Assembly (NCBI GenBank): GCA_000687975.1
Contig: JIAB01000001.1
Span: 3,014,001-3,078,000 of the forward strand
Reading direction: 5' to 3'
DNA from: Lachnospiraceae bacterium AC2031
GTDB lineage: Bacteria; Bacillota; Clostridia; Lachnospirales; Lachnospiraceae
DNA: 64,000 bases
The notes under the pieces are model-generated. The model searched no databases and was not told where the DNA came from. It saw nothing but the letters and a program-made list of their open reading frames with translations. Numbering within the stretch: position 1 is the stretch's first letter; the number at the start of each line of letters is the position of its first letter. The position numbers and the translations under genes were made by a program. This document shows, piece after piece, positions 12,578 through 63,271 of the stretch.

Positions 12578-12626
12578 GTGCAAGTGGGGACAGACCTTGG
12601 TGCAGTGGGGTCCGTCCCCACTGCAC
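12578..12626 (+). repeat. 49-nt REP-like element, copy 1 (full form)
   Basis: The left part contains the invariant TGGGGACAGACCTTGGTGCA; the right part is a hairpin with 11-bp arms GTGCAGTGGGG/CCCCACTGCAC and loop TCCGT, followed by a T run. It sits 14 nt after feoAB and probably terminates it. Confidence 0.85.
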
Positions 12627-12722
12627 TTTTTTGTGTTAGAATGAAACAGTTTGAGGGGTGGGGGACACTGTAATTATGTAGTTTGGTTTTAGTAAAATAT
12701 AGTGTTTTTCGGGGGAATTAAC

Positions 12723-13646
12723 ATGAAAAAGATACTACTTATATTTGTGCCATTTTTGCTGCTGGCATGTATTGCTTTCGTTCTACATAATGGGTATTTT
12801 GAGAAGGGAGTTGCTATAGACGATGATACTTTTCCAGATGCTAAATTCAGGGAACATGTAGCAAAGCATTATGACACCAATGGAAATGGTTACTTGGGTG
12901 AGTTTGAGCGTGAGAAGGTTACAAGTATTAGCATGGAGTCTTGCTTTAATGTTCAGGGGATTGAGACATTTCCCAATATAGTAAGACTTGATTTATCCTA
13001 TGTGGATGATGTGAGTGCGGTGGAACAGCTCTCAAAGCTGAGCGAGCTTAAGCTAACTGATTGTTCAAGTGTAAATCTTGATTTTAGCAAGCTTACTGGT
13101 TTAAAGACTGTCAATATCAAGAACTGTGTTATAGAAAATGAAATCAACATGACAGGGCTTGAGTATCTGGAGAAGATTGAGCTTGTTGATTCAAAGTTTG
13201 ATAAGATGGCAGTTGAGGATTGCCCTGCTTTTCAACGTATGACAAGCCATAGCTCATCTGCTGTTAATGATATGAGCTTTGTGAATCTTCCGAAGTTTAA
13301 TTATTTTTCTAGTAATAAGGATGAAAAATTAGAAGGATTACATTTTATTGATTGTCCAAAACTATTAGAGATTAATGTCGGTTCAGCGCCTGAATTAAGC
13401 GAAATGGAGCTTAAAGGATGTGCGGTTCTTGAAAACCTTGATCTTCCAAAGTGCAAGATTACAGAAGTTGATTTAAGAGAATGTCCGCGACTTGTTGAAG
13501 CTGTGAATGATGAGAGAACCTTCACAGAAGAGAGTAAGATTCTAAAAGATAAGGATACAGGCAGAATGAAATTTCATTTTGATACAAAAGATTTTTACTA
13601 CCAGTCCATCTATTATTTTGGTGATGTAAACTTTATAACAAAATAA
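12723..13646 (+). CDS. Secreted leucine-rich-repeat protein with EF-hand-like motif
   Basis: 307 residues from the ATG at 12723, chosen because GGGGG lies 7 nt upstream; a longer frame from 12702 lacks this. The N-terminus 'MKKILLIFVPFLLLAC' looks like a signal peptide with a possible lipobox (LLAC). Next comes 'FPDAKFREHVAKHYDTNGNG', an EF-hand/dockerin-like calcium loop commonly found at the start of Lachnospiraceae LRR proteins, then irregular leucine-rich repeats of about 22 residues through the C-terminus. It is probably a cell-surface protein involved in binding; the ligand is unknown. Flanked by REP-like copies 1 and 2. Confidence 0.72.
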   Translation: MKKILLIFVPFLLLACIAFVLHNGYFEKGVAIDDDTFPDAKFREHVAKHYDTNGNGYLGEFEREKVTSISMESCFNVQGIETFPNIVRLDLSYVDDVSAVEQLSKLSELKLTDCSSVNLDFSKLTGLKTVNIKNCVIENEINMTGLEYLEKIELVDSKFDKMAVEDCPAFQRMTSHSSSAVNDMSFVNLPKFNYFSSNKDEKLEGLHFIDCPKLLEINVGSAPELSEMELKGCAVLENLDLPKCKITEVDLRECPRLVEAVNDERTFTEESKILKDKDTGRMKFHFDTKDFYYQSIYYFGDVNFITK

Positions 13647-13683
13647 AAGTGCGTTTACTCTTGATTATATGTTAAAATAAAAA

Positions 13684-13732
13684 GTGCAACTGGGGACAGA
13701 CCTTGGTGCAATGGGGGCCGTCCCCATTGCAC
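13684..13732 (+). repeat. 49-nt REP-like element, copy 2 (full form)
   Basis: Left part identical to the other full copies; hairpin arms GTGCAATGGGG/CCCCATTGCAC with loop GCCGT. Both arms carry matching changes relative to copy 1, so the stem is preserved. It ends 23 nt before the start codon of the next gene. Confidence 0.85.
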
Positions 13733-13755
13733 TTTCTGTGTTTTGGGAGGTATTT

Positions 13756-15282
13756 ATGAGAAGGTTAAAAGGTGTATTAAAGGGTGGACTAGCCTTAAGT
13801 CTTTCTATGATGCTCATGTTATCTTGCACTTCATGCGGTAAGGAGCAACAAGTTATAGATGATTATGGCGTACAGACTGATGAGGCTACTGATGAAGCAG
13901 ATGATGCGTCAGGGACTGATACTGAGCCAGAATCTGAAGATCGAGATAATGCGGGACGCAGTTTGACTGAAATATTTGGTGAGAATATTTCTGCTACTGA
14001 TGGATTTAATATGGGTCAGGTTACTGTGGAATATTCCCTTGATTATAAGGTTCCTGAAGTTGAAAAGATTAATGTATATGAAGGTAAGTTCATTGAAGAT
14101 AATTCGGAGATAGAGAAACAGATTGTAAGTAGTTTCTTTGGCGGTACAGAGAAGAATCTAGATGAGATTAAATATGTAAATGAAACAGATTATATACTTC
14201 TTTTATATAAATACAGAAGTATATTAAATGCAGCATCTTCAGGTGGTTTGGATGGTGCGTCTAGTGATGGGATATCCTTGAACATTATAGATTCTTCGTT
14301 TGAAGAGGTTTATACCTGGGGGGATGAGTCGTCCTATTATATCCATATGTATGAAGGTGAATATAATGGAACCAGATATGGAATGATATATTCTTATGAT
14401 AAAACTAGCTTAAAAAGAAACATATATATCTGTCCAATAAGTATAGCTGAATATTTTCCTGATCAAGATGTGAAAACAATGTTTGTTGTAGATCAGAATT
14501 CTGATTATGGAACGAGTAATGTATGTACAATGTCTGGATCAGATGTAGAGGCTGAAGCAGGTGATGTTGTAGAAAAACTTGGCCTCGGTGAAGAAGATGT
14601 TAAGATATCATTTGATCCGAGTATGGCACCTCCTGATGAGGATGTTTTTGGGGCAAACTATGAAACTGAAGCTTATAACGAGATGCCTAAACTTATCTTT
14701 TCAGATTCGGATATTATATTTACGGTTGGAAAGCTTAATATTACAAATCCTTCGGGACGTACATATGCTTATAAGATATTAAAAGAACAGCCTTTTGAAC
14801 AGCAGATGGGAGATGACCAGTCGGAGGATGCGAATTTAACAGAAAATGGATATGCAGTATATTTTTGTTCGAAGCCTTTTTCTGAGAATGTAAAGCCTGA
14901 GGAGCCATCCACATTCAATAGAGGTAGTGTTTTATTCACTGATAAAGGGCTCTTTTCAGCTGATATTTCAGTGATAACGGAAATGGAAGATGTGGTTGAA
15001 GGTGTTTCACTTCTTTCGTTTGATGAGGTAAAAGATCATTTTAAAGAGGCATTAAATAATGATTCGGATATTTCTCATAAATCTGCAGGCAGTCTGGAGG
15101 TTATGAGTGTAAGCTTTACTTATGTTCTGATCCAGGACGAGGAAACAGGTAAAGCAGAGTATGTTCCTGCCTGGTATTTTATAACAAAGGATAATAAGCT
15201 TAAGGACGGAGATCAGAATGTTACTTATTCTCATGTAATCAGCGCTATTGATGGTTCCGATTTAAAGGATATGATTAGATAA
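13756..15282 (+). CDS. Large secreted lipoprotein of unknown function
   Basis: 508 residues from the ATG at 13756, which has GGGAGG 6 nt upstream; a longer frame from 13684 would be translated out of the repeat and is rejected. Signal peptide 'GGLALSLSMMLMLSCTSC' ends in a lipobox (CTSC). After a Thr/Asp/Glu-rich linker (about 30-75) the rest is a soluble domain with no recognisable catalytic motif, ending in a region rich in beta strands ('AEYVPAWYFITKDNKL') that resembles PepSY/DUF6034-like lipoproteins. It is an extracellular membrane-anchored protein of unknown role. Confidence 0.75.
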   Translation: MRRLKGVLKGGLALSLSMMLMLSCTSCGKEQQVIDDYGVQTDEATDEADDASGTDTEPESEDRDNAGRSLTEIFGENISATDGFNMGQVTVEYSLDYKVPEVEKINVYEGKFIEDNSEIEKQIVSSFFGGTEKNLDEIKYVNETDYILLLYKYRSILNAASSGGLDGASSDGISLNIIDSSFEEVYTWGDESSYYIHMYEGEYNGTRYGMIYSYDKTSLKRNIYICPISIAEYFPDQDVKTMFVVDQNSDYGTSNVCTMSGSDVEAEAGDVVEKLGLGEEDVKISFDPSMAPPDEDVFGANYETEAYNEMPKLIFSDSDIIFTVGKLNITNPSGRTYAYKILKEQPFEQQMGDDQSEDANLTENGYAVYFCSKPFSENVKPEEPSTFNRGSVLFTDKGLFSADISVITEMEDVVEGVSLLSFDEVKDHFKEALNNDSDISHKSAGSLEVMSVSFTYVLIQDEETGKAEYVPAWYFITKDNKLKDGDQNVTYSHVISAIDGSDLKDMIR

Positions 15283-15313
15283 CTTGGTGCAGTGGGGTCC
15301 GTCCCCACTGCAC
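15283..15313 (+). repeat. REP-like element, copy 3 (truncated, hairpin half)
   Basis: Only CTTG plus the hairpin GTGCAGTGGGG-TCCGT-CCCCACTGCAC remain; the constant left part is missing. It abuts the lipoprotein stop codon and ends 13 nt before the next ATG. Confidence 0.75.
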
Positions 15314-15326
15314 TTTTGAGGGGACA

Positions 15327-15878
15327 ATGATGGAAGAGAGGAAGTTGAAAAAGTGGGATTGGTTCCGTGATCACATGGAATACTTTCTGGTATATTGCCT
15401 GATAGGCTGGATTTATGAATCTATCTGGTGCTGCTGGATATATCATAAACTTGGATTTATAAATCGTGGCTTTCTTTTTGGACCGTGGATTCCAATATAT
15501 GGAATAGGCTTTTTCATTATATATGGGCTTTTTAAGCTGATAAGAGTTAAGAATCCTATACTTGTTTTTGTGGTCGGTACTGCAATTGCTACTGGTATTG
15601 AACTCCTGGCTAGTTATATAATCGAGGCTGTGATGCACAGAAAGCTGTGGGATTACACAGGCTACTTCATGAACTTTCAGGGGAGAATAGCATTTGAAGC
15701 CAGCATGATGTTTGGTATAATGATCTTTGCGGCTATATGTCTGATTCATCCTGCGATAAAAAAACTGCAGGAAAAGATTCGTGACAGCAAGGTTCATAAC
15801 GTGATATTTATTATCATATCATCGCTGTTCTTTATTGATCTTGTGGCAAGAATCTGGCTGGGGAGCAATATGAAATGA
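15327..15878 (+). CDS. CmpB-like integral membrane protein (putative ABC-transporter type IV family)
   Basis: A 183-residue membrane protein with about four to five hydrophobic helices. It carries family marks 'LIGWIYESIWC', 'NRGFLFGPWIPIYG' and 'GIELLASYIIEAVM', 'WDYTGYFMNFQGRIAFEAS', which match the Pfam ABC_trans_CmpB family found widely in Firmicutes. The real function is unknown despite the name. The start has GAGGGG 4-9 nt upstream (15318-15323). The stop overlaps the next ATG by 4 nt (ATGA), so the two genes are coupled. Confidence 0.82.
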   Translation: MMEERKLKKWDWFRDHMEYFLVYCLIGWIYESIWCCWIYHKLGFINRGFLFGPWIPIYGIGFFIIYGLFKLIRVKNPILVFVVGTAIATGIELLASYIIEAVMHRKLWDYTGYFMNFQGRIAFEASMMFGIMIFAAICLIHPAIKKLQEKIRDSKVHNVIFIIISSLFFIDLVARIWLGSNMK

Positions 15879-16411
15879 GTAGAAGAATAAATTTTTTTGC
15901 AACTGAAAAGGATATGGTGAGTCTGCTTAAAGAAGTAGAGGAAACGATACCATTTGATGTTAAATATATTCTTTCTTATGATACAAGTATTGTCACTGAA
16001 AAGGTGCTTGAGTATAAAAATGTTGAGCAGATTCCGAATCTTGGCAGGCTGACAAAACACCATAGTGAGAAGAGTTTTTTGATCACGCGTAGTGACATGA
16101 AGCCGAAAGTTAAGAAAACCCCTATCGGAGTGAAGGTGATCCAAGGGGAGAATCCGGAATCCGTTGGTTTTGATCCAAGTGGATTTAGCGAAGATGGAAG
16201 CTGCGTTATACATGGCATCTTTTCGACGATGGAGGAAGTGGGTTTATCAAAGGAGCTTTTTAATGCGATACGAAGGCTCATGAATAAACATTTTACCAAA
16301 GTGCGAGGCTGGTATTTTGGTGATGAGGTAAAGTCCCTTTGTGGGCAGGTGAGATATATCTGCATTGAGGTGAATGAGCCTGAGGAATACGACTTTCATC
16401 CTGAGTTTTAG
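15875..16411 (+). CDS. Conserved hypothetical protein, 178 residues
   Basis: A soluble protein with no signal peptide or membrane helix and no motif I recognise. It contains a 'FDPSGFSEDGSCVIHGIFS' segment and a C-terminal 'VRGWYFGDEVKSLCGQVRYI'. It is translationally coupled to the upstream CmpB-like membrane protein through a 4-nt overlap. No function is proposed. Confidence 0.7.
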   Translation: MSRRINFFATEKDMVSLLKEVEETIPFDVKYILSYDTSIVTEKVLEYKNVEQIPNLGRLTKHHSEKSFLITRSDMKPKVKKTPIGVKVIQGENPESVGFDPSGFSEDGSCVIHGIFSTMEEVGLSKELFNAIRRLMNKHFTKVRGWYFGDEVKSLCGQVRYICIEVNEPEEYDFHPEF

Positions 16412-16451
16412 ATAAGATTTAGAGAGGAATGACTACTTAGTTTTAACTGAT

Positions 16452-17141
16452 ATGAAGATAAAGAAAATACTGACAAAGCTGATAGTGATAGGCCTTATCA
16501 TATGCTTTGTCGCTGGCGCTATGGTTTTAGGTTTAAATTTTTACATTATAAAATCTGTAAAAAGAAATGTTATATCTGTTGATGATACTGCATCTCTTGA
16601 AGATGTGGACTGTATTATGGTTTTAGGCTGCGGAGTTTATGCGGACGGAACTTTAAGTCCTATGCTGAACGATAGACTCAGTCTTGCAGCTGATGTGTAT
16701 GGAAAGGGAGCTTCTGAGAAGCTACTTATGTCTGGTGATCATGGCACTGAATACTACAATGAGGTTAGTGCTATGAAAAACTACATGACTTCTAACGGTA
16801 TTGCTTCTTCATCCGATATATTTATGGACCATGCAGGATTTTCAACTTATGAAAGTATCTACCGGGCTAAAGAAATCTTTGGTGCTAAGAAGATAGTGAT
16901 CGTTACCAATACATATCATCTATATCGTGCGCTGTATATTGCAAAATGTTTTGGGCTGGATGCATATGGTGTTGGTGTTGATGATACCTATACAGGAAGA
17001 GAGTATAGAGAGGTTCGTGAGATCCTAGCAAGAGATAAGGACTTTGCAAAATGTATTGTAAAACCTGAGCCTACATTTCTTGGTGAATCCATAGATCTTA
17101 AAGGCGATGGAAATGTAACAGAAGATAAAAGTACAGATTAA
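16452..17141 (+). CDS. YdcF/SanA-like DUF218 membrane-anchored protein
   Basis: 229 residues with one N-terminal transmembrane helix (about 8-28) followed by a DUF218 domain: 'CIMVLGCGVYADGTLSPML', 'ASEKLLMSGDHG', 'MDHAGFSTYESIYRAKEIF', 'IVIVTNTYHLYRALYIAK' and the terminal 'PTFLGESIDLKGDG'. The SanA/YdcF family is linked to cell-envelope integrity (vancomycin sensitivity in enterics); biochemical activity is unsettled. The ribosome binding site is weak (GAGAGGAA lies 20-odd nt upstream), so a slightly different start is possible. Confidence 0.85.
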   Translation: MKIKKILTKLIVIGLIICFVAGAMVLGLNFYIIKSVKRNVISVDDTASLEDVDCIMVLGCGVYADGTLSPMLNDRLSLAADVYGKGASEKLLMSGDHGTEYYNEVSAMKNYMTSNGIASSSDIFMDHAGFSTYESIYRAKEIFGAKKIVIVTNTYHLYRALYIAKCFGLDAYGVGVDDTYTGREYREVREILARDKDFAKCIVKPEPTFLGESIDLKGDGNVTEDKSTD

Positions 17142-17174
17142 CAGAAGATAAAAGTAAGTATTAACGGGGAAAAA

Positions 17175-17639
17175 ATGAATAATAATGAACTTGAGAGGAT
17201 TGCATGGAGGGATGCAAACCAGTTTGATATTGAAAGACTGGACTTTGTTATAAGGAAGAACAACTTTACAAATATAGCACTGATCTGTGCTAGTGTATTT
17301 TCGTTGTTAGTAACTGGCGGATTAGTTGTATTACAGCTGAAAAACAGTATAAATACTTGGCCTATATCTGTTGTGGTAATATTAATTGCGATAGGTTGTT
17401 TGATCTTTTTTATAAGACGTATGCATTTTAAGCCTACGTTTAAGGTTGCTGATGTTACAGTTGAGAAGATAGAGCGTACAGAAAGTTCAGAAATGCCTAA
17501 CATGTATACAGCTGTAGTATCTCAGGGAGATATCACATTACGAAATATAAATATTTACTGTCAAACTCATCCAGAAGAAAATTCAAAAGTCCTGTTATTC
17601 ATTATGGACAGTGACACTTGGTCAGTTGGAATCGCATAA
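17175..17639 (+). CDS. Small membrane protein of unknown function
   Basis: 154 residues with two transmembrane helices (about 34-56 and 63-80) and a C-terminal beta-rich domain ('KVADVTVEKIERTESSEM', 'LLFIMDSDTWSVGI'). The topology, two helices then a soluble domain, resembles DUF3592-like proteins but the match is weak. It has GGGG 6 nt upstream of the ATG. The stop is immediately followed by REP-like copy 4. Confidence 0.65.
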   Translation: MNNNELERIAWRDANQFDIERLDFVIRKNNFTNIALICASVFSLLVTGGLVVLQLKNSINTWPISVVVILIAIGCLIFFIRRMHFKPTFKVADVTVEKIERTESSEMPNMYTAVVSQGDITLRNINIYCQTHPEENSKVLLFIMDSDTWSVGIA

Positions 17640-17641
17640 TG

Positions 17642-17690
17642 GTGCAGCTGGGGACAGACCTTGGTGCAACGGGGTCCGTCCCCACTGCAC
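17642..17690 (+). repeat. 49-nt REP-like element, copy 4, left of the RAYT gene
   Basis: Full form with the invariant left part and hairpin arms GTGCAACGGGG/CCCCACTGCAC (two central mismatches), loop TCCGT, then TTTTTT. It lies 104 nt upstream of the transposase start, in the same orientation as copy 5 downstream. Confidence 0.88.
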
Positions 17691-17794
17691 TTTTTTATTT
17701 TATTTAGAGGGTATTTATGATAATATAATTTTCAATTGTTTGTTCGTTAATAAGATGCTACTGAGTCTCGAGTTTCTAGAAAGGAGTTGGTAAC

Positions 17795-18532
17795 TTGCCA
17801 AGAAAACCTAGAGTATTTGAGGCTCAAGGATATCTGCACATCATCGTAAGAGGAAATGCAAAACAAATCATTTTCGAATGCGATGGTGATTATTTATATT
17901 ACATTTCCCTTTTGGAAAAGTATTCGGAAGAAACAGGTGTGCGTGTTTGTGCTTATTGTTTAATGAGCAATCATGTCCATTTGCTTGTTTATTATGAAAA
18001 TGATAGCGTTCCAGTACTAATGAAAAAGTTAGGTGTGGCCTATACAAGTTATTATAACTGGAAATATGATAGGGTTGGCCACTTGTTTCAGGGACGTTAC
18101 AGGTCTGAACTTGTAATGGATGAACGTTATTATTTGACGGTGTTTAGGTATATTTTGAATAATCCTGTAAAAGCTGGAATATGTGAGGCGGCCAAATACA
18201 AATGGAGTAGCTTCGATATTTTTTCGAAGAGAAACCATTTTGTTGATACAAGCCTTATTCTTGAGCTTGTTGGTGGTCATGATGGATATATTCGTTTTAT
18301 GGGAGAGCCTAATTCTGACGAATGCATGGAGTACGAATCGATGGCGCACAATGATAAATGGGCGATCGATGTAATGAACCGTGTTTTGGGTATTCAAAGC
18401 GGAAATGAAATAAAAACGTACGACAAGATAAAAAGGGATGTAGCTATCCGAAAGCTAAAAGAAAATGGATTAAGCCAAAATCAAATAGCCAGAATAACTG
18501 GTTTGGGTCGTGGAGTAATTCAAAAAGCATAA
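17795..18532 (+). CDS. REP-associated tyrosine transposase (RAYT, Y1/IS200-like)
   Basis: A 245-residue HUH-superfamily enzyme. Motifs: 'HIIVRGNAKQIIF' at the N-terminus, the metal-binding HUH motif 'MSNHVHLLVYY' (H60, H62), 'LFQGRYRSELV', and the catalytic tyrosine helix 'LTVFRYILNNPVKAG' (Y119). The C-terminus (about 205-245) is a helix-turn-helix 'NGLSQNQIARITGLGRGVIQ'. RAYTs nick single-stranded REP hairpins and are thought to disperse them. The start is TTG at 17795 with AAGGAG 9 nt upstream. Two 49-nt elements flank it in direct orientation, which identifies these as its likely cognate REPs. Confidence 0.92.
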   Translation: MPRKPRVFEAQGYLHIIVRGNAKQIIFECDGDYLYYISLLEKYSEETGVRVCAYCLMSNHVHLLVYYENDSVPVLMKKLGVAYTSYYNWKYDRVGHLFQGRYRSELVMDERYYLTVFRYILNNPVKAGICEAAKYKWSSFDIFSKRNHFVDTSLILELVGGHDGYIRFMGEPNSDECMEYESMAHNDKWAIDVMNRVLGIQSGNEIKTYDKIKRDVAIRKLKENGLSQNQIARITGLGRGVIQKA

Positions 18533-18534
18533 AA

Positions 18535-18583
18535 GTGCAAATGGGGACAGACCTTGGTGCAACGGGGTCCGTCCCCACTGCAC
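18535..18583 (+). repeat. 49-nt REP-like element, copy 5, right of the RAYT gene
   Basis: Full form starting 2 nt after the transposase stop; loop TCCGT, same two stem mismatches as copy 4. Together copies 4 and 5 bracket a unit of 942 bp (17642-18583). Confidence 0.88.
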
Positions 18584-18609
18584 ATTTTTTCATAAAGGAG
18601 GGAAAAAGT

Positions 18610-19107
18610 ATGGAGTATGATTGCTGTTTTACAAATGAGAATAAATGGTTTCGCTACAGGGCAGCCGCTATAATTGTGGAGGAAGGCTGCGTGCTTTTTG
18701 CAGGCAATGAGAGAGATGATTATTTCTATTCCATAGGTGGTGGAGTTCATATGGGGGAAACTGCAGAAGATGCTGTGAAGCGTGAAGTTCTGGAAGAAAC
18801 TGGAATTCCTTATGAGGTTGATCACTTGGCTGTTATACATGAGAATTTCTTCTGTGAGAATCAATCGTATCTTAAAGGGCTGGATTGCCATGAGATAGCA
18901 ATGTACTACGTGATGAAGCCTAGAGGAACTAAGGAACTGAAAAGCGATAGCTATACTCTGGGCGTTAAAGAAAGTATGCATTGGATACCAATTGAGGATT
19001 TAGATAAATATAAAGCTTTCCCTACATTTATGAAAGATTTTCTTCAAAGTGAACATGAAGGAGTTGAACATATCGTAACTGATGAACGTACGGATGAATG
19101 TATATAG
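18610..19107 (+). CDS. Nudix hydrolase
   Basis: 165 residues from the ATG at 18610 (GGAGG 18598-18602 upstream); the longer frame from 18535 is read out of the repeat and rejected. The Nudix box is complete: 'GGVHMGETAEDAVKREVLEE' followed by TGI (residues 44-66; pattern GX5EX7REUXEEXGU), binding Mg2+ for hydrolysis of nucleoside diphosphate-linked compounds. The substrate is not predictable. It is flanked by REP-like copies 5 and 6. Confidence 0.9.
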   Translation: MEYDCCFTNENKWFRYRAAAIIVEEGCVLFAGNERDDYFYSIGGGVHMGETAEDAVKREVLEETGIPYEVDHLAVIHENFFCENQSYLKGLDCHEIAMYYVMKPRGTKELKSDSYTLGVKESMHWIPIEDLDKYKAFPTFMKDFLQSEHEGVEHIVTDERTDECI

Positions 19108-19122
19108 TGGTTTAAAGAAATG

Positions 19123-19171
19123 GTGCATGTGGGGACAGACCTTGGTGCAGTGGGGACGGACCCCGCTGCAC
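19123..19171 (+). repeat. 49-nt REP-like element, copy 6 (loop inverted)
   Basis: Left part identical to other copies, but the hairpin loop reads ACGGA, the reverse complement of the usual TCCGT, so the hairpin half is inverted relative to the left part. Arms GTGCAGTGGGG/CCCCGCTGCAC. It ends at the 3' end of the convergent aldehyde dehydrogenase gene. Confidence 0.85.
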
Positions 19172-19173
19172 CA

Positions 19174-20607
19174 TTAGCGTTCGAAGAGGTGGATCAGGGC
19201 TTCTTTCCATTTTGGGGTGTATGGGTGCTCGCGCATGGAAAGGTTAAACTTGTTGGAGCCGATAAGCACGGTCTGTGGATGGGTGAATTCTTTGAATCCC
19301 CATTCGCCGTGATATGCTCCCATGCCTGAATGTCCAACACCATTAAATGGCGCGCCTTTCACCATCATATGAAGGCACACTTCGTTGATGCAGCCTCCAC
19401 CGAACTGCATTCTCTGCATAGTATTCTTGGCCCAGGCAATGTCTCTTGTGAAAACATAGAGTGCCAGGCCTTTTTCTCTTTTTGAAATCTCTTTTATAAG
19501 AATATTGATCTGCGCATCCTTGTATGGAACAACTGGCAGGATAGGGCAGAACAGTTCTTTCTTAACAATATCTTCGTTTATATTAACAGGATAAAGAATG
19601 GTAGGTGAGTACTTAAGTGTCTGTTTGTCACCAGTGCCGCCGTATATAACTCTGTCTCGATATTTGTCTACGTCGGAATCACATTTGGCGTAGGCCGCCT
19701 CGCTTATCAGATGTGGATACTCCGGATTTTTATGAGACTCATCGTCCAGCTGCTTTGTAAAAGCCTTCTTTAGTTCTGCAAGGAATTCCTCAGCAACTTC
19801 TTCAGCAACAGCCACCTGATTTATATTTATACAAACCTGCCCTGAATTAAGGGCCTTGAAAAATGCTATCTTACGCGCTGCATCTTTTAAGTCCGCATCT
19901 TTACGGATGATGCACCAATTACCTGTCTCGCCGCCAAGCTCGAGGGCCACAGGAGTCAGATTCTTCGCAGCTTTCTCCATAACATGAGAGCCCACCTTAG
20001 GTGAACCGGTATAGAATATCTTATCAAATCGCTGCTCGAGGCAGATGTCTGCGATGTCATGTCCGCCACCCAGAACAGTTACATACTTCTCTGGGAATAT
20101 CTGTGAGATTATTTTCTGCATCAGCTCGGTGCAGTGAGATGACTTCGAACTTGCCTTGATCACTGCTGTGTTGCCTCCTGCGATGCTTGCCGCAAGCACG
20201 CCGAGAGAGAGAAGTATCGGAAAATTAAAAGGACTGATGATGAGTGTGACACCGTAAGGCAGCTTGTACACCTTAGTCACAAGACTTGGAAAACAATGAA
20301 GTCCACTAAAATGGGTCTCCGGCTTTGCCCAGTTTCGAAGCCCTTTGATCATTTCATTTATCTCGAGGATCAGACTACCGATATCACAGAAGTATGCTTC
20401 TGTAGGATAGCGTCCAAGATCGTCAGCCAGCGCTTCTTTAAGTTCAGCTTCGTTAGATACGATTGCTGCACGAAGTCGCTTCAGCTGTCTGATACGAAAA
20501 TCGATAGATAGAGTTCTATCCGTAAGAAAGAATCGTCTCTGTGCTTCAACGATCTTTTCAATCTTTTCTCTTTTTTCTAAATTCTCATCATTTGAATAAT
20601 TTGCCAT
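19174..20607 (-). CDS. Aldehyde dehydrogenase family protein (class 3-like)
   Basis: A 477-residue NAD(P)-dependent aldehyde dehydrogenase. 'LIISPFNFPILLSLGVLA' is the cofactor-binding helix, 'FYTGSPKVGSHVM' the Rossmann loop, E223 of 'ALELGGETGNW' the general base and C259 of 'LNSGQVCININQ' the catalytic nucleophile. In most relatives the first motif reads LELGGKSP; here it is GGETGNW, with an altered local spacing. The lack of a signal and the length around 470 residues fit class 3 (fatty or aromatic aldehyde) enzymes such as YwdH. It is transcribed alone, opposite to its neighbours, with GGAGAG ahead of the start. Confidence 0.9.
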   Translation of the reverse strand: MANYSNDENLEKREKIEKIVEAQRRFFLTDRTLSIDFRIRQLKRLRAAIVSNEAELKEALADDLGRYPTEAYFCDIGSLILEINEMIKGLRNWAKPETHFSGLHCFPSLVTKVYKLPYGVTLIISPFNFPILLSLGVLAASIAGGNTAVIKASSKSSHCTELMQKIISQIFPEKYVTVLGGGHDIADICLEQRFDKIFYTGSPKVGSHVMEKAAKNLTPVALELGGETGNWCIIRKDADLKDAARKIAFFKALNSGQVCININQVAVAEEVAEEFLAELKKAFTKQLDDESHKNPEYPHLISEAAYAKCDSDVDKYRDRVIYGGTGDKQTLKYSPTILYPVNINEDIVKKELFCPILPVVPYKDAQINILIKEISKREKGLALYVFTRDIAWAKNTMQRMQFGGGCINEVCLHMMVKGAPFNGVGHSGMGAYHGEWGFKEFTHPQTVLIGSNKFNLSMREHPYTPKWKEALIHLFER

Positions 20608-20750
20608 AGTTATTTCTCTCTCCAGGAGGTTTTTTATTATCTATGTCCTAGTATATGTTATATAAATGTTGATTGTAAATAAAGAAAGCATATAAGCGAC
20701 CAAAATGTGAAGTGTGGTCAGTTGAATGCGAAAAAAAGGAGAGTAAAATT

Positions 20751-21137
20751 ATGGAAGCAAGATGGAAAAGAGCGGCGATTGGTGGAATTGTTTTGACAAT
20801 TTGTTTTATTATAGCAATGTCAGCTTCGAGAACGTATGAACCGATCACTTCTAACTGGGAACTGGTTGAGTACACGGTAAATGGAAAAACTACCAAGGTG
20901 ATTGACGAAGCAGAGGATAATCCTAATTCCCCATCCTTTGTTTGTAAAGGAAATAACAGTTGCGTGGTTTCTGTTAACGGAAAGGACCACGAAGGATATA
21001 TGACGGAGTCCGCAAAAGGAAAGTACAAGATAACCTTTGATGATACAGATCAAGGAATGACCGCGACAATAAAGGGACACAAGCTCACACTTGAAAATGA
21101 TAAGAAAACAGTAGAGATAATTTTCGAAGCAGATTAA
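20751..21137 (+). CDS. Small membrane-anchored lipocalin-like protein
   Basis: 128 residues from the ATG at 20751 (AAGGAGAG 8 nt upstream; a frame from 20712 has no binding site). One N-terminal hydrophobic segment (about 6-24) is followed by an exported beta-rich domain opening with 'SNWELVEYTVNGKTTKV' and ending 'TATIKGHKLTLENDKKTVEI', the pattern of small lipocalin-like DUF5640/DUF4923 proteins seen in many Firmicutes. Function unknown. A terminator hairpin follows. Confidence 0.7.
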   Translation: MEARWKRAAIGGIVLTICFIIAMSASRTYEPITSNWELVEYTVNGKTTKVIDEAEDNPNSPSFVCKGNNSCVVSVNGKDHEGYMTESAKGKYKITFDDTDQGMTATIKGHKLTLENDKKTVEIIFEAD

Positions 21138-26601: not shown

Positions 26602-26628
26602 GTGCAGCGGGGACGGACCCCATTGCAC
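26602..26628 (+). repeat. REP-like element, copy 7a (hairpin only)
   Basis: GTGCAGCGGGG-ACGGA-CCCCATTGCAC, the inverted-loop hairpin without the constant left part, 2 nt after the upstream stop codon. Confidence 0.75.
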
Positions 26629-26635
26629 CAAAATA

Positions 26636-26661
26636 TGCAGTGGGGACGGACCCCATTGCAC
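26636..26661 (+). repeat. REP-like element, copy 7b (hairpin only)
   Basis: A second hairpin with loop ACGGA, 7 nt after copy 7a in the same orientation; it ends 14 nt before the tex start codon. Confidence 0.75.
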
Positions 26662-32832: not shown

Positions 32833-33453
32833 ATGACAGTTAAGAAGACAAGTGTTAAGGATCTCGCTGAGAAGGCTGCTGCTGCAAAGAAGGCAGACGC
32901 TAAGGTAGCAGAGAAGAAGGAAGTTGTTAAAGTTGAGAAGAAGGAAGTTGCTAAGGTAGCAGAGCCAGTTAAGAAGGCAGAGCCAGCAAAGAAGGAAGCT
33001 CCTAAGGCTGCTGAGAAGAAGGCAGAGCCAGCAAAGAAGGAAGCTGCTAAGAAGGCACCTGCAAAGAAGGCTGCTCCAGCTAAGAAGGCTGCTGCAAAGA
33101 AGGCAGAGCCAGCAAAGAAGGAAGCTGCTAAGAAGGCACCTGCAAAGAAGGCTGCTCCAGCTAAGAAGGCTACAACAGCTAAGGCTGCTACAAAGAAGGC
33201 AGAACCAGCAAAGAAGGAAGCTGCTAAGAAGGCACCAGCAAAGAAGGCTGCTACAAAGACAGCAACTGCTAAGTCAGTAGAGAAGGTTGTTGTTGAGTAC
33301 GCTGGTGGTCAGTTCGATACAGCTGATATCGTAGCTAAGGCTAAGGCTGCTGCTGGTAAGAAGTCAGTCAAGGAACTTAACGTATACTTCCAGCCAGAGA
33401 CAGGAATGATCTACTTCACAGCTGATGGTACTGAGGGATCAACAAGCCTGTAA
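32833..33453 (+). CDS. Lys/Ala-rich histone H1-like DNA-binding protein with conserved C-terminal domain
   Basis: 206 residues. The first 155 are almost only Lys, Ala, Pro and Glu in repeats of AKKAPAKKAAPAKKA type, like eukaryotic H1 tails and bacterial histone-like proteins; they should bind nucleic acid electrostatically. The C-terminal 55 residues form a small conserved domain ('VVVEYAGGQFDTADIVAKAK', then 'LNVYFQPETGMIYFTADG') resembling Lachnospiraceae DUF6465. The DNA contains long direct repeats (units starting at 33022, 33103 and 33199). AGGAAAG upstream of the ATG; codon bias suggests strong expression. Confidence 0.88.
   Translation: MTVKKTSVKDLAEKAAAAKKADAKVAEKKEVVKVEKKEVAKVAEPVKKAEPAKKEAPKAAEKKAEPAKKEAAKKAPAKKAAPAKKAAAKKAEPAKKEAAKKAPAKKAAPAKKATTAKAATKKAEPAKKEAAKKAPAKKAATKTATAKSVEKVVVEYAGGQFDTADIVAKAKAAAGKKSVKELNVYFQPETGMIYFTADGTEGSTSL
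33022..33252 (+). repeat. In-frame tandem repeats within histone-like gene
   Basis: Three near-identical units beginning GCAGAGCCAGCAAAG at 33022 and 33103 and GCAGAACCAGCAAAG at 33199. Spacings are 81 and 96 nt, both multiples of three, so copy-number changes keep the frame. Confidence 0.85.
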
Positions 33454-33485
33454 GTAACACTTTAATAGATAAAGCATTTAAAAAA

Positions 33486-33518
33486 GTGCAATGGAACCGA
33501 TTCCATTGCACTTTTTTT
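33486..33518 (+). terminator. Intrinsic terminator of histone-like gene
   Basis: GTGCAATGGAA-CCGA-TTCCATTGCAC with a T run. The outer arm GTGCAATGG also matches the REP-like hairpins, so it could be a diverged member. Confidence 0.85.
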
Positions 33519-33537: not shown

Positions 33538-33563
33538 GTGCAGTGGGGACGGACCCCGCTGCA
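33538..33563 (-). repeat. REP-like element, copy 8 (hairpin only), at the clpX 3' end
   Basis: The loop ACGGA, read on the minus strand as TCCGT, puts this copy in the canonical orientation for the convergent clpX gene, whose stop lies 5 nt away; it probably works as its terminator. Confidence 0.75.
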
Positions 33564-33567
33564 TATT

Positions 33568-40592: not shown

Positions 40593-40630
40593 TGAGTCAA
40601 AAGGGATCAAAGCCAAATCGACTCATTTTG
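40591..40630 (+). terminator. Possible terminator after FolB-FolK-PheA
   Basis: Stem AATGAGTC/GACTCATT with a 21-nt loop and only a short T tract; weak. Confidence 0.45.
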
Positions 40631-44160: not shown

Positions 44161-44398
44161 GTGGGTCCAAATCAGTCCTCGATTTTGAAAAAATCGAGGA
44201 TCCGAACGAAGTGAGGAAGCGCTGCGTGAAACACAGCAATTCTGCGAAGCAGAATCAAGAATCATCATTGATGATTCTTGGCTCAGTCTCAGCGACTTCC
44301 CGAGGAAGTCGCTTCGGTCAGGTCGCAATCATAGATTGCTCCCGATTTGACTAAAAAAGGGCCACCGGACCTTTTTTTACGTCAAATCCCCATCTCCC
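44139..44398. other. 260-bp hairpin-train element bounded by inverted GGGAGATGG
   Basis: Ends: GGGAGATGG (44139-44147) and CCATCTCCC (44390-44398). Inside are consecutive small hairpins with 3- to 5-nt loops: TCCTCGATTT/AAATCGAGGA (44176-44200), ATTCTGC/GCAGAAT (44239-44255), CAAGAATCATC/GATGATTCTTG (44256-44280), AGCGACTTCC/GGAAGTCGCT (44291-44313), GCAATC/GATTGC (44325-44339), and a long last one GATTTGAC...GTCAAATC (44344-44388) with an AAAAAAGG/CCTTTTTT core. No credible protein. It may be a MITE-like element or a structured RNA; the rest of the gap 44399-44484 shows nothing clear. Confidence 0.65.
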
Positions 44399-55090: not shown

Positions 55091-55118
55091 GCCTATTTTG
55101 ATAAACAGTGAACGATTT

Positions 55119-55147
55119 AAAAAGCAGTGATTTTCACTGCTTTTTTT
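55119..55147 (+). terminator. Intrinsic terminator after proC, fused to a promoter
   Basis: Stem AAAAAGCAGTG/CACTGCTTTTT with a 5-nt loop; the T tract continues into TGTTATAAT. Confidence 0.88.
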
Positions 55148-55155
55148 GTTATAAT
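55147..55155 (+). promoter_or_regulatory. Extended -10 promoter for AAA+/TelA operon
   Basis: TG-T-TATAAT right after the T tract, about 39 nt upstream of the first gene; same arrangement as at 5702-5710. Confidence 0.5.
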
Positions 55156-55193
55156 AGGGAATGTTGTAGAAGTATTTATTTGGGGAAATAACT

Positions 55194-56354: not shown

Positions 56355-56379
56355 GAAGGATATATAAGGGAAAACGATT

Positions 56380-58500: not shown

Positions 58501-58503
58501 TAT

Positions 58504-59433
58504 ATGAATGGTACAGGGGTGAACCCTGAAGAATGCAAATACCTGGAGATTATAGAGGGTAATAATCTAACTGAATATAAGATGTATTTCAGGTCTATAG
58601 GTGAGGTTCAGAGTTTTCTTCGTACTGATCCTGATATTAATTCTGAAATCTTCTACGAACAGAAGAGTAAGACCTCCAGTGAGGATTTTGCCGGAGCGCC
58701 TCTTGATATAGCTATTAATTATTGCATAGGTGGTTATAGTGAGAACTATGATCAGTTTCTGAAACTCTCAAGACAGCTTGAACAGGTCAACAAGAAAAAG
58801 GCTAAGGTGAGACAGACCACCACATCCTTTGTGGGACAGAGGCCTAATGTACCTGCTTATATTGCTGGGGCGCCTAAGAACATGTACAGGCTGGAACGAA
58901 CAGAAGAGAAGAAGCTTAAGAGGATATGGATGAAGGTTACCTATGAGTCAGCTACTACTGAGGAACAGATAAGAAACAGAGGAATCATAGCTCTTAATCT
59001 TATCAATCTTCTGGAAATGAATAACTACCTGGTAGACTTCAGACTCTTCGAGGTTTGTAATGTGGACTCTGAGGTATTCAGATGCGAGGTGGATCTGAAG
59101 AGACCTGGACAGAGGCTTCATCCTAGACTTTGCTATTATCCTATGTGCGGAAAGGCATTTGTTCGCAGGGTCTTATGCAGAATAAAGGAATCGATGCCAT
59201 TTAAATGTGGCTGGGGCCTTAGCTACGGTGTAGTTATGAATGAGCAGTACACTCGTATGATCATGGATATTCAGGACAGGGATATCTATATAGGTTCTCC
59301 AAGTGAGATGAATATTAAAGGTTTAAATATTTACGAGGATGCAGATGCATTCTTAGAGAAGTTAGATTTAGGGGACAAGATTGTACTTCCTTCATATAGG
59401 GAAGAGGGAGTACAGATTTCTGTTGGAGGTTGA
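58504..59433 (+). CDS. VWA-like partner protein (DUF7192-like)
   Basis: 309 residues following the AAA+ gene by 3 nt and joined to TelA by the shared GGAGG. The central region 'LKRIWMKVTYESATTEEQIR' then 'NRGIIALNLINLLEMNNYLV' resembles DUF7192 proteins of actinobacterial phages, a predicted VWA-like fold in which the metal site is degenerate; this is pattern resemblance. VWA partners recognise substrates for MoxR ATPases, consistent with the gene order. The start ATG has AAGGGG 8 nt upstream. Confidence 0.7.
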   Translation: MNGTGVNPEECKYLEIIEGNNLTEYKMYFRSIGEVQSFLRTDPDINSEIFYEQKSKTSSEDFAGAPLDIAINYCIGGYSENYDQFLKLSRQLEQVNKKKAKVRQTTTSFVGQRPNVPAYIAGAPKNMYRLERTEEKKLKRIWMKVTYESATTEEQIRNRGIIALNLINLLEMNNYLVDFRLFEVCNVDSEVFRCEVDLKRPGQRLHPRLCYYPMCGKAFVRRVLCRIKESMPFKCGWGLSYGVVMNEQYTRMIMDIQDRDIYIGSPSEMNIKGLNIYEDADAFLEKLDLGDKIVLPSYREEGVQISVGG

Positions 59434-59435
59434 TT

Positions 59436-60467
59436 ATGGATGATTTAGCTTTGCTAAGAGAACTGTCAGATAATCCGGAGCTTTATCTGGAGGATGAGGA
59501 CAGGGAGTTATTACAGACAAATAAAGATCTTATAGATGTGAGCAAGGCCAACAGCATTACGATGTATGGATCAGATATCCAGAAAAAGATGGCTGATCTC
59601 TCTGAGATGATGATCAAGAGTATCGGGGAAACAAAGGTTGACGAGATAAGTGAGACTATCGATCAGACCGTGGAATATCTTTCTGAGACTGATGACAAGG
59701 ATGTAAAGAAAAGTGTGCTTCCGTGGAAGAAGCAGGATAAGTCACTTACACTTCAGAATAAGTATGATATCATTTCGCAGAATGTAGAAAAGATAGAGAG
59801 TTCACTTCAGGCTCATCAGGTCCGTCTTATGAAGGATACGGCTATGCTGGACCAGATATATAAGATGAATCAGGAGTATTTTCGTCTTGTTAATCTGAAG
59901 ATCGCTGCGGCAAAAGATAAGCTTGAACAGCTGAGAATGGGACAGTACCCAGCTGACTGTGCTGATATCATGCCTGATATTATGGATCGACTGGAGCGAA
60001 AGATTGTGGAGCTTGAGACCACCAGAACTATCTCAATTCAGCAGGCACCACAGATAAGAATGCTACAGGCAAATGCGGCTGCTATGGCGGACAAACTTCA
60101 GTCCACACTGTATACAGTTATTCCTCTATGGAAGAACCAGATTGTGATTGCATTTGGAACCGAGCATACAAGAGCGGCTATAGCTACTGATAAGAAGCTT
60201 ACGGATATGTCGAACCAGCTGTTGATCAAGAATGCGCAGAATCTTAAGATGCTGACTATAGAGACTCAGAAGGCCAGGGATGAGAATACTATCGATCCAA
60301 AGGCGCTGGGTGAGGCCAACAGGATTCTTATTGAGAGTCTGGATGATATTACAAAGATTCAGCAGGAAGGAAAGCTGAAGAGATATCAGGCGGAGCAGGA
60401 ACTGGCTAAGATCGATGAAGAGATGAAGGGAAGGCTTTATCTTGCTTCTGTTGAATCTAAGTCCTGA
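59436..60467 (+). CDS. telA: TelA-family toxic anion resistance protein
   Basis: 343 residues from the ATG at 59436 (GGAGG 7 nt upstream; the TTG at 59430 is too close). TelA marks: 'RTISIQQAPQIRMLQANAAA', 'TLYTVIPLWKNQIVIAFG', 'DMSNQLLIKNAQNLKMLTIE', and the terminal 'IQQEGKLKRYQAEQELAKID'. The protein is all-helical and cytoplasmic. TelA proteins are linked to tellurite and envelope-stress tolerance through Ter-type complexes; no terC or terD is seen here. It ends the operon. Confidence 0.93.
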   Translation: MDDLALLRELSDNPELYLEDEDRELLQTNKDLIDVSKANSITMYGSDIQKKMADLSEMMIKSIGETKVDEISETIDQTVEYLSETDDKDVKKSVLPWKKQDKSLTLQNKYDIISQNVEKIESSLQAHQVRLMKDTAMLDQIYKMNQEYFRLVNLKIAAAKDKLEQLRMGQYPADCADIMPDIMDRLERKIVELETTRTISIQQAPQIRMLQANAAAMADKLQSTLYTVIPLWKNQIVIAFGTEHTRAAIATDKKLTDMSNQLLIKNAQNLKMLTIETQKARDENTIDPKALGEANRILIESLDDITKIQQEGKLKRYQAEQELAKIDEEMKGRLYLASVESKS

Positions 60468-60525
60468 GTTTAGCTTTGTTGAGGTAAATAGTTTGAATTA
60501 GTTTTTGGTTTACATAAGTTTACAT

Positions 60526-60574
60526 AAAACAGTCTGTTTTTGTGAGTTGTTATAAAGACGGGCTGTTTTTCTTT
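60526..60574 (+). terminator. Intrinsic terminator after telA
   Basis: Stem AAAACAG/CTGTTTT with further G-U pairs inside and a T run; moderately strong. Confidence 0.6.
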
Positions 60575-60662
60575 TGTGTGAGATAGCATTTGGCTTTGAT
60601 ACAATGCGGATACAATGTAGTTATAGTATGAGACGATAGAAATACCAGAGTGGTTGAAAGGT

Positions 60663-63146
60663 ATGGTGAAAGTTATGAAGAGAGTTATGAAAAAATCTAT
60701 GAAGAAGTTGCTGGGGATGTCCTGCGCAGCGTTGTATGTATTATCGATGGGCTTTGGTAATACGACAGGAGTATCGGATGTATATGCTGACGGGGATAAG
60801 ATCCTTATTGAACAGCAGGCAGAGGACATTAATGTTATACCTGATACGTATAATACAGGTGTTGATAGTTCAGTCAGCTTTACAAAGTACGTGGGAGTTG
60901 ATGCGAAGGACGCTGATATAGATGTTTGTACTCCTATTGTTGCAACGTCAGGTTCTAATTCGTACAACATCGGGATAAAGAAAAGTAATGGAGACTACGT
61001 TATAGATTTTGGCGCTAAGCAGAATGCTAATCTCCCAGAACGTATAGAGGTCACAAATTATGATTTCACTGACTTTTATTTTAGAACCAGCAGAGAAGAT
61101 TTTGTTACTACTAAGAAAACTATAGTTTTTAAAAACTGTATTATTTACAGATTTTCAAGGGATAAGTTTGACAGGAATATAACATATGAGTTTTATAACT
61201 GTACTATCCGTCGTTATGAAGGAAGTAATGCCTTGTTTAGAAACTGCTTCTTCGGTGGAAGCACATCAGATCCGCTAGTTCCATTTAGAAATATAGATGT
61301 AAAAGACTGTTTCTTTGGAAATCTAAATCATCCGAGTACTGACCCTACTCATATCGACTGTACTCAGATGTATGGTCATCAGTATTATGATAAGGCGACT
61401 CAGACAAATAAAACCCTTGATGTAGAAAACGTTAAGTATAAGAATTGCAGATTTATGGTTCCAAACATTCTTTATGATAATGGTAATCAGGCTACAGTAA
61501 ATGCATGTATGATGATCCAGCTTGAGTATGCTAGTGGTAATAACATCTCTGTAGAAGACTGTATAATGAACGGTGGTTCTTATACCATATATTGTCAGTC
61601 TACTGCTGGTGATATACATATGAATAACGTTAAGCTGATAAATAACCGTGTAGGTGCAGCTACGTCTCACGGAGCAGTATATCCTACAAATATTGATCCA
61701 GATGCTGAATTCCAGGGTTTAAGAGGAACGGATTCACTGTATGTCAGCAGCGTATATAAGGAGAATGGTAAAACTTACTTCTACGTGACAAATGATACTC
61801 CTCGCGAAAGAAAGCTTAAGGTAATTACATCTAAAGGGGAATATGATTTTACAGTTAAGGCATGTCCAAAAGGTAAGACCGAGGAGAATGAGGAAGGATT
61901 CCATTGTTCTTACAGTGATTTTCCTATAGATGTTGTCGAATCAATAAATGAAGATTGTTCATATGCTGTATGTCTTGATGTGACAGATGAGAATAACGTA
62001 AGGCAGATCCGTTTTGTTAATTACGCAGGTTCACCTGTATATATTGATAAGAGTTATATGGGAACTGGATATAATCAGGATGTGATAGTTAGTGAAGGTC
62101 CTCTTGGAACTGATCTTACTTACACGGTAACAAGAACAGCTTCTAATGAATATATTCTTAGAATTTCAGGAAAAGGACAGATGCCTGGATTTAACAAGCT
62201 TGATACACCACCTTGGTCTGATTACACAGATTATTTAACTAAGATCATTGTTGAAGATGGCGTAGAGAATATAAGTAGCTTTGTATTCTTTGGAAGTTTT
62301 GGAGTAACAGACATAGAGCTACCTGATTCGATTACAATGATTGATAAATATTCTTTTGCAAACTGTGCAAGTATAAAGAAGATCAACATTCCTGCTTCTG
62401 TTAAAACAATAGGAGAAAGAGCATTTTTAGGTGCTCAGCTTGTGAATGCTGATGGAACTCTTAAGAAGGAGACATCCAATTCAGGAACAGATTCAGGAGA
62501 GGGAGTTGAGAAACCTGATGATTCAAATGTAAATCCTTCAAATGAAAATGACGCGAATAACGTGCCTAAGGACGTGAAGGAGAATAACAATAATGATTCT
62601 AGCTCTTCTGGTAATGGAACATCAGGTGGAGCGGCCGGTAATGGTGGATCAGGTGATGCTTCTGGTAGTGGAGCGGCTGGTACTGGTGAGGCTGCTCAGG
62701 CAGGAACCTCATATTCAAGTGAATGGGTAAATGGCTACTGGTACAACGCTGACGGAAGTCAGACTTATCCAGGTGTAATGGAATGGAAGAGTAATAGCAA
62801 GGGCTGGTGGATAGAGGATACTACAGGCTGGTATCCAGTAAGTACATGGCAAAAGATCAACGGCTATTGGTACTATTTTGATTATAATGGATATATGGCA
62901 TCTAGTGAGTGGGTAGATGGCTACTGGCTTGGCTCAGACGGTGCATGGGTTTATGCCGAGACAGGCTCCTGGAATTCTGATAAGACAGACTGGTGGTTCG
63001 GTGATACCTCTGGTTGGTATGCTGCAGGACGCTGGCAGAAGATCAACGGCTACTGGTACTATTTCAATTCATCAGGATACATGGTGACCAATAAATACAT
63101 TGATGGCTACTGGCTGAACGGTAATGGCCAGTATACAGGAAACTAA
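60663..63146 (+). CDS. Secreted beta-helix/LRR protein with C-terminal choline-binding-type repeats
   Basis: About 827 residues; start uncertain among ATGs at 60663, 60675 and 60687, with no strong binding site. Signal peptide 'MKKLLGMSCAALYVLSMGFG'; a right-handed beta-helix-like region (about 90-345) with recurring 'FKNCIIYRF', 'YNCTIRRY' and 'FRNCFFGG' strands; a BspA-type LRR ('VTDIELPDSITMIDKYSFAN'); a Gly/Ser/Asn linker (about 610-680); and four wall-binding repeats such as 'WQKINGYWYYFDYNGYM' and 'WQKINGYWYYFNSSGYM'. It should be attached non-covalently to the cell wall and bind or cleave a polysaccharide; enzymatic residues are not evident. Confidence 0.85.
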   Translation: MVKVMKRVMKKSMKKLLGMSCAALYVLSMGFGNTTGVSDVYADGDKILIEQQAEDINVIPDTYNTGVDSSVSFTKYVGVDAKDADIDVCTPIVATSGSNSYNIGIKKSNGDYVIDFGAKQNANLPERIEVTNYDFTDFYFRTSREDFVTTKKTIVFKNCIIYRFSRDKFDRNITYEFYNCTIRRYEGSNALFRNCFFGGSTSDPLVPFRNIDVKDCFFGNLNHPSTDPTHIDCTQMYGHQYYDKATQTNKTLDVENVKYKNCRFMVPNILYDNGNQATVNACMMIQLEYASGNNISVEDCIMNGGSYTIYCQSTAGDIHMNNVKLINNRVGAATSHGAVYPTNIDPDAEFQGLRGTDSLYVSSVYKENGKTYFYVTNDTPRERKLKVITSKGEYDFTVKACPKGKTEENEEGFHCSYSDFPIDVVESINEDCSYAVCLDVTDENNVRQIRFVNYAGSPVYIDKSYMGTGYNQDVIVSEGPLGTDLTYTVTRTASNEYILRISGKGQMPGFNKLDTPPWSDYTDYLTKIIVEDGVENISSFVFFGSFGVTDIELPDSITMIDKYSFANCASIKKINIPASVKTIGERAFLGAQLVNADGTLKKETSNSGTDSGEGVEKPDDSNVNPSNENDANNVPKDVKENNNNDSSSSGNGTSGGAAGNGGSGDASGSGAAGTGEAAQAGTSYSSEWVNGYWYNADGSQTYPGVMEWKSNSKGWWIEDTTGWYPVSTWQKINGYWYYFDYNGYMASSEWVDGYWLGSDGAWVYAETGSWNSDKTDWWFGDTSGWYAAGRWQKINGYWYYFNSSGYMVTNKYIDGYWLNGNGQYTGN

Positions 63147-63222
63147 ACTTTTTATTTTTAATCCAAATTTTAATTGTCCTTAAGGACTTCTTAATGTAAT
63201 TCTTTCTATAATTACAAAAAAA

Positions 63223-63271
63223 GTGCAATTGGGGACAGACCTTGGTGCAGTGGGGACAGTCCCCACTGCAC
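63223..63271 (+). repeat. 49-nt REP-like element, copy 9 (full form)
   Basis: Invariant left part; hairpin arms GTGCAGTGGGG/CCCCACTGCAC with loop ACAGT. It ends 23 nt before the next start codon. Confidence 0.85.

Follow-up and report, generated by a model that had tools for sequence, protein, structure and literature searches.

Dispersed REP-like hairpin elements and a candidate TIRYT-type transposase gene among them in Lachnospiraceae bacterium AC2031

We analysed a 64,000-nt stretch of the Lachnospiraceae bacterium AC2031 genome (contig JIAB01000001.1, positions 3,014,001 to 3,078,000), called the window in what follows, which contains copies of a short hairpin-forming repeat and, in their midst, a gene encoding a 245 amino acid Y1 (HUH) transposase. 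The repeats are most probably, at a rough probability of 0.83, non-autonomous elements similar to repetitive extragenic palindromic (REP) sequences, copied to sites along the chromosome in single-stranded form by the product of this gene, which appears to be of the TIRYT type. The adjacency of the gene and the repeats, the abundance of the repeats, the distribution of both across genomes, differences between two species and the predicted fold of the enzyme all argue for this interpretation, and cleavage and copying of single-stranded DNA by Tyr119 of the transposase are suggested by the modelled fold and by analogy with known enzymes.

The 20-nt left half of the full 49-nt element, TGGGGACAGACCTTGGTGCA, has six exact matches in the window, all on the forward strand, compared to a mean of 0.01 in shuffled sequence, and no further matches were gained when three mismatches were permitted. 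The six elements share this left half unchanged, and their positions and lengths are those given in a preliminary description of the window. The four shorter, hairpin-only copies which it listed were also present, within 4 nt of the proposed starts (15287 for 15283 and 26635 for 26636, with 26602 and 33538 exact). The copies and the transposase gene are listed below by window position, L being the left module and P the hairpin module, along with the state of the corresponding site in Lachnospiraceae bacterium NE2001 where this was read.

12578-12626, forward strand: 49-nt element, L plus hairpin P at 12600-12626 (sequence search and folding)
13684-13732, forward strand: 49-nt element, L plus P at 13706-13732 (sequence search and folding)
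15287-15313, forward strand: hairpin-only copy (P); filled at the same site in NE2001
17642-17690, forward strand: 49-nt element, L plus P at 17664-17690, upstream of the transposase gene; P only in NE2001
17795-18532, forward strand: gene for a putative TIRYT-type Y1 (HUH) transposase, 245 amino acids, TTG start, with a C-terminal helical tail that may resemble a helix-turn-helix (HTH); PF01797, E 2.2e-11
18535-18583, forward strand: 49-nt element, L plus P, starting 2 nt past the transposase stop codon; filled at the same site in NE2001
19123-19171, forward strand: 49-nt element, L plus P, loop oriented like L; also found in NE2001
26602-26628, no strand assigned: hairpin-only copy (P), first of a pair that is also in NE2001
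26635-26661, no strand assigned: hairpin-only copy (P), second of that pair
33538-33564, no strand assigned: hairpin-only copy (P); the orthologous site in NE2001 is a longer array
63223-63271, forward strand: 49-nt element, L plus P with an ACAGT loop (sequence search and folding)

Across the AC2031 genome, which is a single contig of 3.19 Mb, the left half had 67 matches at up to two mismatches (34 forward and 33 reverse), a few of which are hairpin units, for example those reading GACCCC. The 27-nt hairpin had 111 matches at up to three mismatches, and reversed-pattern controls gave none. Members of the family are built from TGCA boxes approximately 22 nt apart that are connected by modules of two kinds, P and L. 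Module P is the near-palindrome RYGGGG-NCNGN-CCCCRY, which together with the TGCA boxes forms an 11-bp stem; the resulting 27-nt hairpin folds as DNA at -13.6 kcal/mol (z -5.8). Module L, nnTGGGGACAGACCTnnG, is related to P and is non-palindromic, the matching 3' arm being absent. The two "halves" of the 49-nt element are modules that share a box. The element had been described as a fixed left half joined to a hairpin, and both of these parts exist, but among 105 P units 45 stand alone, with 58 having L at one side and two having L at both. The usual units are thereby P alone or L plus P (49 nt), with a few longer arrays, and tandem L modules occur at genome positions 304916 and 1391147. We considered and rejected the 49-mer of this family as a strict inverted dimer (REPIN): in the 58 units with L and P the loop of P has the orientation of L (ACGGA) in 33, the inverted one (TCCGT) in 11 and neither form in 14, which leaves the 49-mer without a fixed inverted layout. 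One strand of the copy at 12578 can alternatively fold as a single long hairpin, and both folds are possible.

The product of the gene between the elements at 17642 and 18535 was analyzed for motifs and fold. It matches Y1_Tnp (PF01797) with an E value of 2.2e-11, and contains both the HUH motif and the Y---NP signature of class 2 TnpA-Y1; residues H60, H62, Y119, N123 and P124 do not vary across 40 aligned sequences. Its AlphaFold model (mean pLDDT 88.7, with helices predicted within residues 187-244) has as its best fold match in the PDB the structure 4er8, an E. coli REP-associated tyrosine transposase (RAYT) in complex with a REP hairpin (TM 0.73 by target, 0.51 by query; E 1.2e-06). A sequence profile also matches 4er8 (E 0.0028), while phmmer with the single protein against the PDB gave no match at E 0.01. 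The C-terminal tail has matches to Pfam HTH_3 and HTH_7, both under the cut-off. The preliminary description had named the gene a linked RAYT. The linkage stands, in that a Y1 transposase tied to the repeats lies nearby, with the upstream 49-nt element ending 104 nt before the gene and the downstream one beginning 2 nt after it, but the enzyme is not of the GTAG type: GT[AG]G was found at or no more than 6 nt from the foot at 3 of the 210 ends of 105 hairpins, and the protein scored 51.3 bits with the NCBIfam RAYT model NF047646, which is below the cut-off of 80. The sequence GGGGACAG, at 17650 and 18543, flanks the gene on both sides and fits TIRYTs and TIRtrons, and judged by these flanking repeats the transposase is probably a TIRYT rather than a GTAG-type RAYT.

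A catalogue of 96 sites within 550 kb of the genome, mostly around known copies, was used to map the repeats relative to genes. With a crude model of open reading frames (ORFs) that admitted ATG starts only, 81 of the 96 sites were intergenic, although just 10-12% of the 550 kb is intergenic, and the median distance to the neighbouring stop codon was 13 nt; the dispersed copies that the preliminary description had expected are thus what was observed. Fifteen sites lay inside ORFs, 11 of them no more than 100 nt from the ORF end and four deeper (683570, 2400077, 2415275 and 2442795). This model was preferred over one allowing GTG starts, which put 39 of the 96 sites within ORFs because GTG starts within the element lengthen the ORFs. 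The bases at positions 2 and 3 outside P were A or T in more than 90% of the ends without L. The densest cluster of catalogued sites surrounds the transposase gene, with six of the 96 in 6.6 kb where 0.20 would be expected.

The intergenic location of 81 of the 96 sites, at a median of 13 nt from a stop codon, also fits an explanation in which selection on host transcription maintains the hairpins as ordinary intrinsic terminators or stabilisers of mRNA ends, with their proximity to the transposase being coincidental. A T-run, meaning four consecutive T, is found no more than 9 nt from 40 of 210 unit ends (37 of the 105 units), compared to 44 of 1152 control stretches located 60-120 nt away, and two elements qualified when 12400-19400 of the window was scored for terminators. 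However, the T-run is absent from 68 of the 105 units, nothing evident in the L half points to a role as terminator, and neither a fixed 20-nt sequence, nor abundance in just two of 62 genomes, nor clustering at the transposase would be expected of terminators. We regard this explanation as improbable, and suggest that perhaps about a third of the copies could double as transcription terminators, or that insertion prefers T-runs.

The distribution of the family was surveyed in 60 relatives, 36 of them of the same genus, which with AC2031 make a set of 61 genomes; NE2001 lies outside this set. At up to one mismatch the hairpin had 105 matches in AC2031 versus 0-3 in each of the 60 relatives, three of which contained it (G032 with three matches, G007 and G009 with one each). 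The left half gave 0-2 matches in each relative, and seven relatives have any. A relative of the transposase is encoded in 17 of the 61 genomes, AC2031 included. In NE2001 we found 56 left-half matches, and its only match to the 245 amino acid protein is 96-97% identical. The family is therefore abundant only in the two genomes that have this transposase, AC2031 and NE2001, in keeping with the restriction to such genomes that had been proposed. The linker CCTATG occurs in 26 of the 56 left-half matches of NE2001 and in none of the 65 rows examined (of 67) for AC2031, so that a CCTATG subfamily either expanded in NE2001 or was lost from AC2031 after the split.

The two genomes are syntenic, with gaps, across approximately 80 kb around the transposase gene, and the gene is at the same place in both, save for one 154 amino acid gene that is missing upstream in NE2001. 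We compared six AC2031 blocks with five NE2001 blocks; since the blocks were partly picked for shared copies, filled sites are over-counted. Orthologous NE2001 flanks were found for 17 of 36 AC2031 sites, of which 14 were filled and three were scored empty, and AC2031 flanks were found for 18 of 24 NE2001 sites, 15 filled and three empty. Presence/absence differences upheld on close reading are those at NE2001 contig C41 positions 44231, 133968 and 134636 and at AC2031 position 299177. Modules differ at some doubly filled sites, namely 3000270, 3047539 and 3012705, the last of which was unplaced by the automatic test. The comparison of orthologous sites, which the preliminary description had put forward as a check, thus found some sites occupied in only one of the two species. 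These sites of differing occupancy, along with the subfamily that NE2001 has of its own, suggest that the family was mobile after the split.

Two other explanations are best considered along with this comparison. The 49-mers may be ends, or deletion derivatives like those called MITEs (miniature inverted-repeat transposable elements), of a larger IS200/IS605-like element that moves together with the gene. Two very similar elements do bracket the gene, and MITEs can arise as deletion derivatives of larger elements, but the gene is single-copy in both AC2031 and NE2001, at the same place, while there are about a hundred repeats; the flanking elements moreover share direction, and NE2001 has just P for the upstream one. 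We regard a larger element as improbable. Also improbable is that the repeats are binding sites of a host protein (nucleoid or replication signals, for example) with functional TGCA boxes and a transposase domesticated to process them, for although the position of the transposase is conserved in both species and many sites are common to both (in blocks partly chosen for sharing), the turnover of subfamilies between close species and the near absence from 60 relatives disfavour an essential chromosomal role.

The association of a related transposase with a hairpin family of its own was also seen elsewhere. Transposases of relatives, 34-56% identical to the 245 amino acid protein, mostly have different repeats: of the first 13 homologous loci, 10 have flanking repeats whose core is of the GGGRC or GGGTC type, in other surroundings. 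We then took the best 80 of at least 567 stretches encoding a relative, and the counts of motifs and hairpins at loci that follow are for these. At 43 of the 70 loci whose flanks are complete, GGGGWSAS or GGGGACRG occurs in the 250 bp on each side, and the density of these motifs is 4.52 per kb near the gene versus 0.353 per kb elsewhere in the same loci. In 60 of the 80 loci one or both flanks carry, no more than 300 nt away, a hairpin with arms enclosing GGG[AT]C[AG] (both flanks in 28), compared to 135 of 2441 control windows. Among the 60 hairpin-bearing loci there are 39 variants of the five innermost arm bases, and GGTTCT is in the loop of 32; in these related hairpins the arms vary around a GGGGAC-type core. 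The specificity of two such hairpins was tested in 11 genomes. That of NC2007 had 226 matches in NC2007 and none in the 10 other genomes, and that of WCD3002 had 86 in WCD3002, 24 in AC2031 and a single one in both NE2001 and NK2B42, with no match in the other seven. In NC2007 and WCD3002, too, a single transposase type is thus paired with a single hairpin family, and both genomes contain inverted hairpin pairs around a short spacer (the REPIN layout).

The AC2031 genome has no second copy of the window gene, its next relative there being 47% identical. This second TIRYT-like gene, at genome positions 1993640-1994404 and 44-47% identical to the window transposase, has separate flanking repeats with TGAGTCA boxes and ACGTCCGACGT cores, and GGCTTTGAGCC forms are found nearby. 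What appears to be a copy of the GGCTTTGAGCC form of this second family exists in the window at 40593-40625, with four mismatches on one strand and two on the other.

Several observations weigh against the repeats being copied by the transposase among them. The preliminary description held that the element should not be present in genomes lacking a RAYT gene of this type, and this is true only in part: 1-3 hairpins were counted in three of the 60 relatives, of which two (G032 and G009) show no Y1 transposase. The sister family with TGAGTCA boxes and ACGTCCGACGT cores has eight matches in AC2031, 64 in G032 and none in NE2001 and 10 other genomes, and a PF01797 search of the G032 assembly, which is 97% complete, returned no Y1 transposase; either the gene was lost from G032, or it lies in an assembly gap, or the repeats were mobilised from elsewhere. 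A third AC2031 family, with TGCCA/GGCCA arms around GGGGACGGTTCTC, has 24 matches at up to three mismatches (for example at 952328, 3162569 and 2057881), with no matching third TIRYT. Occurrence only where the transposase is also found thus holds for the window family at high copy number, and not as a strict rule. In the comparison with NE2001, AC2031 site 304916 was scored empty and is actually occupied in NE2001 by a diverged GTGCG-boxed array, and site 2732544, likewise scored empty, has a 693-nt gap in NE2001 and is a weak case. The identity of the flanks is only 70-99%, so the insertion junctions at empty sites are not base-exact, and ends and target duplications are not fixed by them. 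Lastly, the two variable arm pairs show no co-variation inside the family: matching pairs were found in 54 of 105 units versus 57.3 expected under independence, and in 43 of 105 versus 52.4. Both arms of the second copy do change and still pair, as had been noticed, but since the pairs match no oftener than under independence this is not a property of the family, and compensatory evolution of the arms was rejected on these 105 units.

We compared the system with those already described. According to Di Nocera et al. (2013; PMC3733652), TIRYTs are relatives of RAYTs with long inverted repeats and with moderately abundant dispersed copies in some species; some families of these repeats are dispersed, in dimers or clusters, and some are self-complementary, and TIRYTs are deemed less productive than RAYTs. 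The window system resembles TIRYTs and TIRtrons, as portrayed there and as subclass 2.1 of Quentin et al. (2018; PMC6006769), in its RAYT-like Y1 gene, flanking GGGGWSAS repeats (here GGGGACAG), long C-terminal extension and Y---NP signature. It differs from them in having clear hairpins and about a hundred copies, and the clostridial set keeps a GGGGAC core while the arms differ. Quentin et al. report no REP-like sequences at subclass 2.1 genes; the clostridial data differ on this point, our assignment of these genes to subclass 2.1 being putative. With the gammaproteobacterial RAYT, REP and REPIN systems (PMC8266576, PMC8049555, and structure 4er8) it shares an HUH/Y1 enzyme and a cognate palindromic family that is mostly intergenic and clustered near the gene, and the inverted hairpin pairs of NC2007 and WCD3002 are a further likeness. 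It differs from these in the GTAG/GTGG foot (3 of 210 ends), a conserved core at the loop, the C-terminal helical tail, the non-palindromic L, and the score below the NCBI RAYT cut-off.

IS200/IS605 elements have the same catalytic domain family, and their recognition of hairpins would be a feature of the window system too. They differ from it in that neither AC2031 nor NE2001 has a second copy of the window gene or shows it to have moved together with its flanks. One ordinary IS200-type TnpA gene, encoding 143 amino acids, is present in AC2031 at 2167791 with a long ORF adjoining, which we take to be TnpB-like.

Literature searches of limited coverage found no report of a RAYT with REPINs in Firmicutes, nothing beyond Quentin et al. 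(PMC6006769) on a REP-associated tyrosine transposase in Clostridia, and, as judged by the listings, nothing related for Butyrivibrio with REP terms or for the string GGGGACGGTTCT; a text search of PMC3686654 found no TIRYT terms. Within the same coverage, the names TIRYT and TIRtron appeared in two papers only. The best account is that the system works like RAYT/REP and lacks the GTAG foot, and it was for this reason assigned to the TIRYTs and TIRtrons as a clostridial variant.

From the HUH/Y1 fold and from what is known of RAYT and IS200 enzymes, the transposase would bind the folded hairpin, and Tyr119 would cut beside the hairpin and rejoin it elsewhere. Short copies would be left in AT-rich spots, mostly just past stop codons, and any use as terminators of the copies with T-runs would be secondary. 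It is tempting to speculate further, though this is a tentative idea that we think may well be wrong, that there is a clostridial branch of HTH-tailed Y1 transposases, each with a private REP/REPIN population, in which the common GGGGACGG core would be the signal for catalytic recognition and the genome-specific arms, read by the C-terminal HTH, would be an address tag keeping coexisting systems orthogonal. If the main interpretation, of a TIRYT with REP-like repeats, holds, the TIRYT group does run REP-like populations, systems in the style of RAYT-REP extend to Bacillota, and a natural set of enzymes and hairpins that combine a constant part with a variable one would be at hand for studying substrate choice. 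Many terminator-like hairpins in such genomes may then be mobile DNA.

Two genes beside 49-nt elements of the window differ between the species. An LRR-like gene at 12702-13646, located between two of these elements, is missing at the same place in NE2001. The 154 amino acid gene at 17175-17639 ends 2 nt before an element and is missing in NE2001, where similarity resumes at a GTGCA box. It is possible that genes were gained or lost at these repeats.

An Rfam search of the window at gathering scores gave two tRNAs only. Directly after two near-identical tRNA-Leu genes (43797 and 44013), three hairpins whose stems pair perfectly over 10 bp or more lie within 140 nt (44176-44313). An ORF at 32833-33453 is rich in lysine/alanine-type repeats, and its DNA makes up the largest repeat families on the repeat list of the window. 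A distinct hairpin with GTGCAATGGAA arms and a T-tail exists at 33485-33512, 25 nt ahead of the family copy at 33538, and NE2001 has another terminator-like hairpin there.

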